A stretch of 64,000 nt of DNA. It comes from Synechococcus sp. UW69. GTDB taxonomy: Bacteria > Cyanobacteriota > Cyanobacteriia > PCC-6307 > Cyanobiaceae. The stretch is taken from contig NZ_UCNW01000002.1 in the NCBI RefSeq assembly GCF_900474185.1, forward strand, positions 62,001 to 126,000. The letters are read 5' to 3'. Positions 15,324 to 18,551 of this stretch are shown piece after piece; the stretch's first letter is position 1, and each line of letters begins with the position of its first letter. The position numbers were made by a program, and so were the translations under genes. The notes below the pieces were generated by a model. That model was not told where the DNA came from, ran no database searches, and saw only the letters and a program-made list of their open reading frames with translations.

Positions 15324-15629
15324 CTATTCCAATCCCATGGATTGGACGTCGCAGGCTGTGTCAACCTCTCGGGCAAGCTGCTTGAGATCACCGTCGATGT
15401 AGGTGACTCCAGTCCGTGGTCCGCCAGATCGGAGTTTCAACTGCTTGCCGGTGGCGATGGAGTAGGTCGCCTTGAGTTGATCCATATTTTTTGTGCCTCG
15501 TGCCCATTCCTCACAGAGGAACGCCTTCCTCTCTTGCTTGCTCATGGTTGAGCAGGCTGCGAGGAGCACCGCCGTGCCCAGTGCACACCATTGCTGAAAA
15601 CCTTTGATGGTCGCCTGATCCGGTTTCAC
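15324..15629 (-). CDS. Putative lipoprotein
   Basis: 101 residues from a GTG at 15629 that overlaps the nadA stop (GTGA). A basic start, hydrophobic stretch and lipobox LLAAC (Cys near residue 26) indicate membrane anchoring by lipid. The exported part has three further Cys and a strand-rich [19 protein letters not shown]. No family recognised. Although it overlaps nadA, a shared function is not implied. Confidence 0.65.
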
Positions 15630-16558
15630 CGGCTCATCTCAAGCATGCGCTGCATGGGTTTCAGGGCCTTCAGGCGCAAGGTTTCATCCATGTCGATTGC
15701 AGGCGTGAGGGTTTCCAGGCAGGCCTTCAGTTTTTCAAGGGTGTTGAGCCGCATGTAAGGGCAGGCATTGCAGCTGCAGCCATCCAGCCCAGGGACGTCG
15801 AGCAGCGTCTTCTCGGGCACCCGTTGCTGCATCTGATGCAGGATCCCCGGTTCCGTCAGAACGATGAAACTGTCTGAGGCACTTTGTTCTGTGTAGTTCA
15901 AGAGTTTGCTGGTGGAACCAATGAAGTCCGCCAGGTCCAGCAGGTTCTGCTGGCATTCAGGGTGGGCAATAACTTCCGCCGAGGGATGTTCGTGCTTGAG
16001 CGCAAGCACGGCTTCTTCGCTGAATGTTTCGTGGACGATGCAGCGTCCAGGCCAGAGGGTCAGCTCGCGACCGCTCTGTTGCTGCACCCAGCGCCCCAGG
16101 TTTTGATCTGGTGCGAACAGAACCGACTGATCCCGTGGCAGTTGATTGACCAGATCGACGGCATTGCTGCTGGTGCAGATCAGATCGCTCTGCGCTTTCA
16201 CTGCTGCCGTGCAGTTGATGTAACTCACCACGAAGTGATCGGGGTGATTCGAACGAAACCGGGCGAAGTCGTCTGCTGGGCAGTCATCTGCCAGGGAGCA
16301 ACCAGCATCCAAATCCGGCAGAACCACCGTTTTTTCTGGGCTGAGAATCTTGGCGGTCTCTGCCATGAAATGCACACCGCAGAACACGATTACATCTGCA
16401 TCGGTGCTGGCAGCTTGTCGTGATAGTTCCAGTGAGTCGCCAACGAAATCGGCGATGTCTTGAATCTCCGGTTCCTGGTAGTAATGCGCCAGGATCACGG
16501 CATTGCGGTCTTCGCGAAGCCGGTTGATCGCCGCAACAAGGGCGGTGTCAGCGCTCAT
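15626..16558 (-). CDS. nadA: Quinolinate synthase A
   Basis: 310 residues from the ATG at 16558 ([17 protein letters not shown]); the frame is open to 16597 but the shorter start leaves a gap to the divergent gene. NadA condenses iminoaspartate with dihydroxyacetone phosphate to quinolinate in de novo NAD synthesis and carries a 4Fe-4S cluster. Visible signatures: [20 protein letters not shown] near the start, [44 protein letters not shown] and [18 protein letters not shown]. The three cluster Cys are in CGVHFM, HPEC-adjacent and CNAC contexts. The overlapping lipoprotein gene follows. Confidence 0.95.
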
Positions 16559-16602
16559 CAGGACCGGTTCGGGGCAGGATGAACACAGCCTAGGCATCCG
16601 CT

Positions 16603-17460
16603 CTGACGCACCTGCGACTTGCCATTGCTGGTGATCTGCATGGCGCCTGGGGCGATGCGGATGAGCAGCTTCTGCAGATCCTCAAGCCCGATGCTGTTCT
16701 CTTCGTTGGTGATCTCTCCGATGGCGACCTGCGTCTGACGCGCAGGATCACGCGTCTTCCGTTTCCCGTGGCCGTGATCCTGGGGAATCACGATCGTGGG
16801 CGGGATCGCAGTGGCGGCATCCTTGAGCAGCAACTGGCTGTACTCGGTGATCTTCACTGTGCTTGGCGGGCCATCCAATGGCCGGAGCTCCCCTTGACGA
16901 TTGTCGGTGCACGTCCCTGTAGTGCTGGAGGTGGTTTTCATCTCTCAAATGCCGTGGAGGCGGTGTACGGACCGGTGTCGCTTGAGGCGTCCGCCGATCG
17001 GATCGTTCAGGCCGCGGCAGGTGTCCCCGCCGATCAGCCCTTGATCGTGATGGCCCATTGCGGTCCCACGGGGCTGGGCTCGGATGCAGCCAGTCCGTGT
17101 GGTCGGGATTGGAAAACGCCAGCTCTTGACTGGGGTGATCAGGATCTTGCCCTCGCCTTGGATCGCATGGCGCGGAATCGACCTGCAGATCTGGTGATTT
17201 TCGGCCACATGCACCATGCCCTCAAACGGGGCTCCGGGCTCCGGCAGAACCTGCTGCGCCACCGCCACGGAACGGCACTGATCAATGCTGCCTGCGTGCC
17301 GCGCTCCGGGCTTGATGGGAATGATCGGCCGCTTATGCATCTTTCCTGGGCTGAATTCCAGGGCTCCCAACTGACTCAGCTGGCCCATCGTTGGTACACC
17401 TCAGACGCTGAGTTGATCCATCAGGAGCAGTTGCCGATGGATGCTCCCTCGTCGTGCTGA
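16603..17460 (+). CDS. Metallophosphoesterase (TIGR04168-like), unusual start
   Basis: The reading frame clearly codes from about 16603: GDLHGAW (residues 10-16), VGDLSDGD (35-42) and GNHD (61-64) are the first metal-binding motifs, followed by MAHCGPTG and FGHMHHAL. This is a calcineurin-type metallophosphoesterase of the cyanobacterial TIGR04168 kind; the substrate is unknown. There is no ATG, GTG or TTG before the motifs: the frame has CTG at 16603 (CTG-ACG-CAC) after a TAG at 16591. An in-frame ATG at 16579 is followed four codons later by that TAG. A later GTG at 16768 would remove the first two metal motifs. Either CTG is used, or the gene carries a nonsense mutation or sequence error. 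Confidence 0.8.
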
Positions 17461-18551
17461 TCTACACCTGCAGCAGCAGCCATGGCTTTGGCCACGCGGC
17501 TCGGGATGCGGCAGTGCTGCAGGCGCTTCGACGCCTGCGGCCCGAGTGGACTCTGGTCATCAGTTCGGGTCTCCCCCCCCCTGTGCTGAAGCGTCTGCTG
17601 GGGGATTCGTCCATTCAGCAACGTTCCTGTCAGTGGGATGTGGGCATGGTGCAAGCGGATGCTCTCGGTGTGAATCATGCGGCCACGCTCACCGCCTTGG
17701 ATCTGCTCGAGCAAAGGTTGCCGGCCTTGATTGAGGCCGAAGCCGGCTGGTTGGCGGCACAGGAGCAGCCAGTGCTCATCTTCGGCGACATTCCCCCGGC
17801 CGCCGCCGCCTTGGCGCAGCGGCTGAGGGCACCCCTTGTCTGGATGAGCAATTTTGGATGGGATGACATCTATGCACCCTTGGGACCTGCGTTTCAACGG
17901 GCTGCTGAGGATGCAGCTGAGGCCTATCGCTGCGGTGATCTGCTGCTTCGTTGTCCGTTTGATCTACCCATGAACTGGGGCTTACCCGACAGCAGACTCG
18001 GGTTGGTGTGTGCCGCGCCGCGGCCCATTCCGGCGGATCTGGAGGCTTGCTTGGATGCCCTCCACGTTCCAGTGGTTCTTGTTGGGTTCGGTGGCATCGG
18101 TCTGTCCCTTCGCAGTGATCTGTTTCAGCTTTGGCCCAACCACCATTTCCTCATTCCGGCCTCAGCCACGGCCTCGCAACAGCCTGAGCTGGCTGAACTC
18201 CCCAATCTCACAGTTCTGCCGGAGGGTGTGCGTCCTGTCGATGTGCTCGGCCGCTGTGCCCGTTCTCTGGGGAAGCCGGGATTTAGCAGCTTTTGTGAGG
18301 CGATGGCCCAGGGTGTTGGGCTTCACGTGGTTGCGCGCAGCGGATTTGCTGAAGCGTCTGTGCTGATGGATGGCCTGCAACGGCACGGTCAGCACCGATT
18401 CCTCAGCCGGCTGGAGCTGGACGCAGGGGCATGGCAGTTGGACCAGCCTTTGTTGGCGCCCACGGAGGCACCTCTTTCTGCATTAGGGGCTCATGAAGCC
18501 GCTTTGGCACTGGTGAGCTGGGTTGAAAGCATTTTTAATTTTCAGCGTTAA
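17454..18551 (+). CDS. GT-B glycosyltransferase-like protein
   Basis: 365 residues from a GTG at 17454 that overlaps the phosphoesterase stop by seven bases. The N-terminal Rossmann half has YTCSSSHGFGHAARDAAVLQ, like the acceptor-side loop of GT28/MurG-type enzymes and of L-arabinokinase N-terminal domains. The C-terminal half has VVLVGFGGIGL and the donor-site pattern GKPGFSSFCEAMAQGVGLH. The product is unknown. The overlap with the phosphoesterase gene suggests that the two work together, perhaps making and trimming a glycosylated or phosphorylated compound. Confidence 0.75.
   Translation: MLIYTCSSSHGFGHAARDAAVLQALRRLRPEWTLVISSGLPPPVLKRLLGDSSIQQRSCQWDVGMVQADALGVNHAATLTALDLLEQRLPALIEAEAGWLAAQEQPVLIFGDIPPAAAALAQRLRAPLVWMSNFGWDDIYAPLGPAFQRAAEDAAEAYRCGDLLLRCPFDLPMNWGLPDSRLGLVCAAPRPIPADLEACLDALHVPVVLVGFGGIGLSLRSDLFQLWPNHHFLIPASATASQQPELAELPNLTVLPEGVRPVDVLGRCARSLGKPGFSSFCEAMAQGVGLHVVARSGFAEASVLMDGLQRHGQHRFLSRLELDAGAWQLDQPLLAPTEAPLSALGAHEAALALVSWVESIFNFQR

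Follow-up and report, generated by a model that had tools for sequence, protein, structure and literature searches.

Introduction

Conserved non-AUG start codons are a known phenomenon, of which the AUU of infC, the gene for initiation factor IF3, is the classic example, and a survey by Gvozdjak and Samanta reportedly covers bacterial genes that prefer non-AUG starts. To our knowledge, CTG is almost never used as a start codon by bacteria. Like infC, the phosphoesterase gene described here would have an initiation codon that is near-cognate, probably of low efficiency, and constant in position among orthologues. It differs in that infC encodes a translation factor, begins with AUU and is autoregulated, whereas the present gene encodes a phosphoesterase and would begin with CUG. 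The infC gene of the same genome appears to begin with ATG.

The described relatives of the gene product are the calcineurin-like metallophosphoesterases of PF00149 (purple acid phosphatases, TT1561 and the SbcD/Mre11 fold) and the NCBIfam hypothetical equivalog TIGR04168, for which we found no paper in the open-licence PMC literature. In the titles and abstract openings of open-licence PMC papers, we found no account of a CTG start for the phosphoesterase gene.

Results

The locus and its reading frame

The window is the whole stretch of DNA analyzed, 64,000 nucleotides corresponding to C2:62001-126000 of a 2.37-Mb genome, and a search of that genome found the phosphoesterase gene to be single-copy. 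A first-pass annotation had drawn attention to a frame at 16579-17460 on the forward strand in which the only upstream ATG is soon followed by an amber codon, with no ATG, GTG or TTG between the amber and the metal-binding motifs. The letters of the window bear this out. The frame begins with ATG16579, meets TAG16591 and is thereafter open to the TGA at 17458-17460, and an in-frame scan of the window found no ATG, GTG or TTG from TAG16591 to motif I. The codons after TAG16591 read GCA TCC GCT CTG(16603) ACG CAC CTG CGA CTT GCC ATT GCT GGT GAT CTG CAT, and CTG16603 sits nine codons ahead of the GD of the first metal motif. The use of GTG16768, the first standard start codon past TAG16591, would remove motifs I and II. 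Read from CTG16603, the protein is full-length and contains GDLHG, GDLSDG, GNHD and GHMHH, which agrees with the annotation's claim that all metal-binding motifs are encoded; the key residues are invariant in 21 sequences (Table 1).

The divergent neighbor nadA adjoins the phosphoesterase gene in all 27 same-genus loci, in 30/30 loci of group g17, in 30/30 of group g5 and in 18 of the 21 named loci. The downstream gene, which may resemble a glycosyltransferase, matched nothing in Pfam or NCBIfam at E 0.001. Within the fetched flanks it was found near the phosphoesterase gene in 26/27 same-genus and 30/30 g5 loci, and in 0/30 g17 loci.

Table 1. Coordinates of the features of the phosphoesterase locus within the window
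Feature	Position	Strand	Evidence or remark
nadA (quinolinate synthase), divergent neighbor	15626..16558	-	adjoins the gene in all but a few of the loci checked
GGCAGGATG block, contains ATG16579; possible -10 region	16573..16581	uncertain	aligned by eye with GGCAGTATAGAG/GGCAGTATAAT of other groups
CCTAGGCA block, holds TAG16591	16589..16596	+	carried by 46/130 clade loci
In-frame TAG, four codons ahead of CTG; 5' boundary of the open frame, inside the conserved upstream block	16591..16593	+	same-genus comparison
Metallophosphoesterase (TIGR04168) CDS read from CTG, 285 codons + TGA	16603..17460	+	profile matches; relatives in 94/118 and 351/400 genomes
CTG, proposed initiation codon (read as fMet)	16603..16605	+	27/27 same-genus, 31/31 g17, 123/131 clade (6 shifted included; some rows by eye)
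Metal motif I, GDLHG (residues 10-14 from CTG)	16630..16644	+	G10, D11 and H13 invariant in 21 sequences
Motif II, GDLSDG (residues 36-41)	16708..16725	+	G36 and D37 invariant in 21 sequences
GTG, first standard start codon past TAG	16768..16770	+	codon scan
Motif III, GNHD (residues 61-64)	16783..16794	+	invariant in 21 sequences
GHMHH motif (residues 201-205)	17203..17217	+	invariant in 21 sequences
Unnamed downstream gene overlapping the phosphoesterase stop	17454..18551	+	adjoins the gene in most groups checked, not g17

The predicted protein

Profile matches and the modeled fold suggest that the gene product is a metal-dependent phosphoesterase of the calcineurin-like (PF00149) type. The window protein scored 330.6-330.7 bits against TIGR04168, for which the NCBI curated cut-off is 200, and 59.7 bits against PF00149 of Pfam, for which the gathering score is 21.5; TIGR04168 was matched by all 21 members of the protein alignment. 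An AlphaFold2 model of the protein from CTG, made with 20 relatives, had a pLDDT of 88.4 and a pTM of 0.90, and in this model strand 1 consists of residues 3-10 and runs directly into motif I. Foldseek returned 55 PDB chains at E 0.001 or better (best E 1.2e-8), with purple acid phosphatases at the top, and no PDB relative was found by sequence at E 0.01. The likeness to calcineurin-like metallophosphoesterases lies in the Pfam score and the Foldseek fold matches, whereas the 50 listed hits have 9-17% identity and query TM-scores of 0.37-0.54. The protein is also a match to TIGR04168 above the cut-off, but the first position of that profile corresponds to residue 24 of the protein from CTG, fourteen codons past the G of motif I, and so the profile is without the first metal motif.

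The start codon among relatives

Searches matched the gene in 94 of the 118 genomes of relatives and in 351 of the 400 genomes of the family. The 220 loci collected include some from the 400-genome search, drawn from the better-scoring part of its matches. Seven of the 34 same-genus genomes gave no hit, and the completeness of each of the seven is below 80%. Among the best 30 loci of the 118-genome search, window included, the homologous codon is CTG in all 30, and TAG is found at the window's TAG position in 29, the exception being L013. The same-genus loci (n=27, window included), aligned over the start region as the first-pass annotation had advised, have CTG in 27/27 and TAG at the window's position in 26/27, again with L013 as the exception. 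The ATG is differently placed: the GGCAGGATG-type block that holds it is displaced from the frame by one base in L013, L014, L015, L016 and L026 and has ATA for ATG in L018, and several other genera have a version of the block without ATG, e.g. GTATAGAG.

These comparisons settle most of what the annotation had left undecided. It had expected relatives to have ATG at the position of CTG16603, and every same-genus locus has CTG. Its three options were a CTG start, a nonsense mutation and a base error. The first is strongly supported. The other two are ruled out, since genomes sequenced independently have both CTG and the upstream stop. A nonsense mutation or misread base peculiar to this genome, the start really being ATG16579 or an ATG in the place of CTG, would account for the fact that the sole upstream ATG in frame is cut off by TAG; it is refuted by the conservation of both codons in the same-genus loci and by the six loci that have the ATG in another frame or lack it, and we give it practically no credence. 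The gene is not broken, since nearly all close relatives keep CTG, and the annotation was right to argue against long-standing decay, the frame being intact to TGA and the CTG conserved across the clade defined below. Its stress on an amber codon directly after an ATG was misplaced, given the shifted and altered blocks. The same blocks bear on the suggestion that ATG16579-AAC-ACA-GCC-TAG is a conserved leader peptide, or a read-through amber, that regulates the gene. Although the window and many same-genus relatives do have the mini-frame, there is no conserved ATG-to-amber mini-frame, because the ATG block is out of frame in five loci and has ATA in L018; with blocks lacking ATG in other genera as well, a conserved upstream mini-frame was rejected on the same-genus comparison, and a regulatory role of this kind is extremely improbable.

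A tree of 174 protein rows (FastTree, start columns left out, midpoint root as drawn, g17 rows thinned to 9 of 31) splits into one side of 107 rows (support 99) and another of 67 rows (support 99). The 107 rows, together with the thinned-out g17 rows and with L056 and L139, which were placed by group, constitute a clade of 131 loci with 28 genus codes. The clade has CTG at the aligned codon in 117 loci and a shifted CTG with an N-terminal insertion in another 6 (L081, L087, L101, L111, L113 and L115, assigned by eye), for a total of 123/131 loci and 24/28 genus codes. The remaining 8 loci have TTG (5), GTG (1), ACG (1) and ATG (1). L056 (TTG), L139 (CTG), L105 (GTG) and L134 (ATG) were scored by eye. 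On the other side of the tree, the same codon is TTG in 31 rows, GTG in 4, ACG in 3, ATG in 2, CTG in 1 and some other codon in 26, with a standard start nearby in most of the last. The fewest changes of start-codon class on the whole tree number 20. From named records (Synechococcus sp. MU1642, Prochlorococcus sp. AG-409-P03, Cyanobium and Synechococcus RCC307 are among the loci) and base composition, we take the clade to be Prochlorococcus and marine Synechococcus, Cyanobium too, and g17 would be high-light Prochlorococcus.

Some loci have peculiarities of their own. L090, L153 and L160 (genus codes g29 and g81) have ACG at the start position, without ATG, GTG or TTG in the open frame before motif I, and this ACG might initiate more weakly still. 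L056 (G071:C1:183682-184516) has an interrupted gene, seen as two overlapping matches, one of which has an internal TAA; two other g39 genomes, G155 and G180, which have the same genus code, gave matches without stops.

Codon usage and coding signal around the CTG

In the same-genus set of 27, the CTG column has zero entropy, whereas the other 27 leucine columns all vary, with CTG at 4-74%. In g17, the most AT-rich group (gene GC 32%), the start is CTG in 31/31 loci versus 0.9% of 754 other leucine codons, and in the 50 clade members whose genes have a GC below 42% it is CTG in 49 and TTG in 1, versus CTG in 35/1352 leucine codons elsewhere. These CTG counts are descriptive, as the sequences share ancestry and are not independent trials. 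The same codon is found at the same place in orthologues and is more conserved than synonymous codons, as expected for a conserved non-AUG start of the infC type.

Variation by codon phase in the same-genus set is 2.53/2.99/2.91 in the 42 nucleotides before CTG and 0.89/0.62/4.72 after it. The third-position signal directly after CTG is strong in the same-genus and g34 sets, and no clear periodicity precedes CTG. The signal is weaker in a mixed set (n=40) and in g17, whose sequences vary little (0.13/0.00/0.38 after CTG). Position 2 of the protein is occupied by Thr, Lys or Ser in 27/27 same-genus loci and by Thr or Ser in 31/31 g17 loci, and from this position most g17 sequences read Thr-Asn-Leu.

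Other possible starts were sought in the open frame, up to 150 nucleotides upstream, in 197 loci; this set leaves out L060-L080, which are named records partly from the same genomes, and L219, which is the same place as L053. CTG without ATG, GTG or TTG in the open frame before motif I was found in 87/197. Of the 117 CTG loci in the set, 20 have a standard codon in the open frame 26 to 5 codons before GD (16 TTG, 4 ATG), and 10 others have one farther upstream. Nine of the 20 share one TTG, three codons past CTG, in a g34 subgroup, where it could serve as the start; the rest are scattered.

The upstream region

Among the clade loci that carry the CCTAGGCA block, CTG begins exactly 6 nucleotides past the block in 44/46 (39 by script, and L016, L017, L018, L020 and L027 by eye because of an earlier out-of-frame CTG); L033 has TTG there and L105 neither. 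The distance is kept in loci with N-terminal insertions too. The fixed CCTAGGCA-N6-CTG spacing fits a start codon or a DNA element alike and is not decisive. With nadA next to the gene in nearly all loci checked, some of the upstream conservation, and the constant distance as well, may stem from a DNA element. In its full form, this alternative would make the CTG itself belong to a regulatory element of DNA or RNA, for instance the divergent nadA promoter, with translation starting at the near-cognate ATT16624 or at a downstream GTG or TTG. The constancy of the nadA neighborhood and of the 6-nucleotide distance would be explained. However, g17 has no visible CCTAGGCA block upstream and still has CTG in 31/31 loci, the codons that replace CTG are initiator-like, the codons from CTG to motif I show coding periodicity, and the later starts would cost strand 1 or motif I. 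We therefore consider this alternative to be very unlikely.

No sigma-70 consensus promoter was found at 16400-16800, and the -10 and strand assignments are comparisons by eye. The only Rfam match around the start was at a chance-level E of 0.8, on the opposite strand inside the gene. Ahead of the CTG there is at best a weak AGG at eight bases. A leaderless mRNA beginning at CTG was considered, as TAGGCA ends 6 nucleotides ahead of CTG; against this, several other groups have a TATAAT-like box, identified by eye, about 18-20 nucleotides before the start, which would suggest a leader of about 12-14 nucleotides. L011 and L022 read GAC TAG GCA TCC ACT CTG in place of the GCC TAG GCA ... GCT CTG of most relatives. 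The two loci, which come from distant members of the genus, share both changes, whether by chance, recombination or coupled change.

Discussion

It is very probable, judging by comparison of orthologous sequences, that the gene is intact and that CTG16603 is its real start, decoded by the ordinary initiator fMet-tRNA, TAG16591 being merely the first in-frame stop upstream. The case consists of the conservation of CTG, the point at which coding periodicity sets in and the absence of another conserved start, and is supported by the position of strand 1 in the model from CTG and by the restricted residue 2. The standard codons near CTG in 20/117 loci and the weak phase signal of g17 count against it. 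The protein would then begin fMet-Thr-His-Leu-Arg-Leu-Ala-Ile-Ala-Gly-Asp. TAG16591 would lie within a conserved promoter or leader block, CCTAGGCA, of the short nadA spacer, outside the reading frame. A promoter in this compact nadA-phosphoesterase spacer would give rise to a short leader, probably without a strong Shine-Dalgarno sequence, and initiation at the CUG would be inefficient.

The decoding of the CUG deserves comment. The initiator-tRNA pattern GGGCTCANAACCC has 13 matches in the same genome at one mismatch or fewer, and the sole exact one, with CAT, is a tRNA-Met in L222. Among the three of the 13 matches that were checked, no initiator tRNA with a CAG anticodon was seen, and L223 and L224 are without a tRNA gene. 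That cyanobacteria can use CUG should not be taken for granted, because in one study CUG gave no GUS reporter expression in tobacco chloroplasts or Escherichia coli (PMC9845219). Translation initiation in Prochlorococcus may depend on S1-dependent or leaderless mechanisms, according to another (PMC5607370).

If CTG16603 is the start, it may still be a neutral relic, any initiator being adequate and none selected for weakness. The eight clade loci with TTG, GTG, ACG or ATG are consistent with such indifference, as is the prevalence of TTG in the 67-row part of the tree. A single transition would turn CTG into the standard start TTG, yet CTG is kept in 49 of the 50 low-GC loci, and in the reconstructions of PMC5622118 ancestral UUG starts became AUG in 43 of 2,468 cases and CUG in only 1 of 2,468. 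A neutral relic is possible, and we think it somewhat less than probable. Among 61,358 ancestral AUG starts, the same study gives 2 switches to CUG. The retention of CTG where TTG is one transition away and the rarity of switches to CUG in those published figures both favor a regulatory weak codon.

Selection may have kept initiation weak, so that little enzyme would be made or its output would follow the condition of the initiation machinery. By analogy with the AUU of infC, we tentatively suggest a lineage-wide regulatory CUG start, maintained through the radiation of Prochlorococcus and marine Synechococcus despite the strong AT mutation bias of Prochlorococcus, that would hold the enzyme at a low level or let it track initiation-factor or growth state. 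This is a real possibility that falls a little short of an even chance.

Existing gene models probably cut off the front end of this gene. In 111/130 clade loci, the first ATG, GTG or TTG from CTG onward falls past motif I. The next standard codon lies 5-48 codons past the GD of motif I in 125/129 clade loci and 2 codons past it in 4, and the distance is 11-14 codons in 57/129. That the TIGR04168 profile begins after motif I suggests that it was built on such truncated gene models.

Prochlorococcus and marine Synechococcus are the ocean's commonest photosynthetic bacteria. As read from the aligned orthologues, the CTG start of their phosphoesterase gene would add to the known conserved non-AUG starts, and the conservation of its CUG appears unusually clean and wide. 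Because the standard starts in those 111 loci and the NCBI profile all fall after motif I, the enzyme has probably so far been described without part of its active site.
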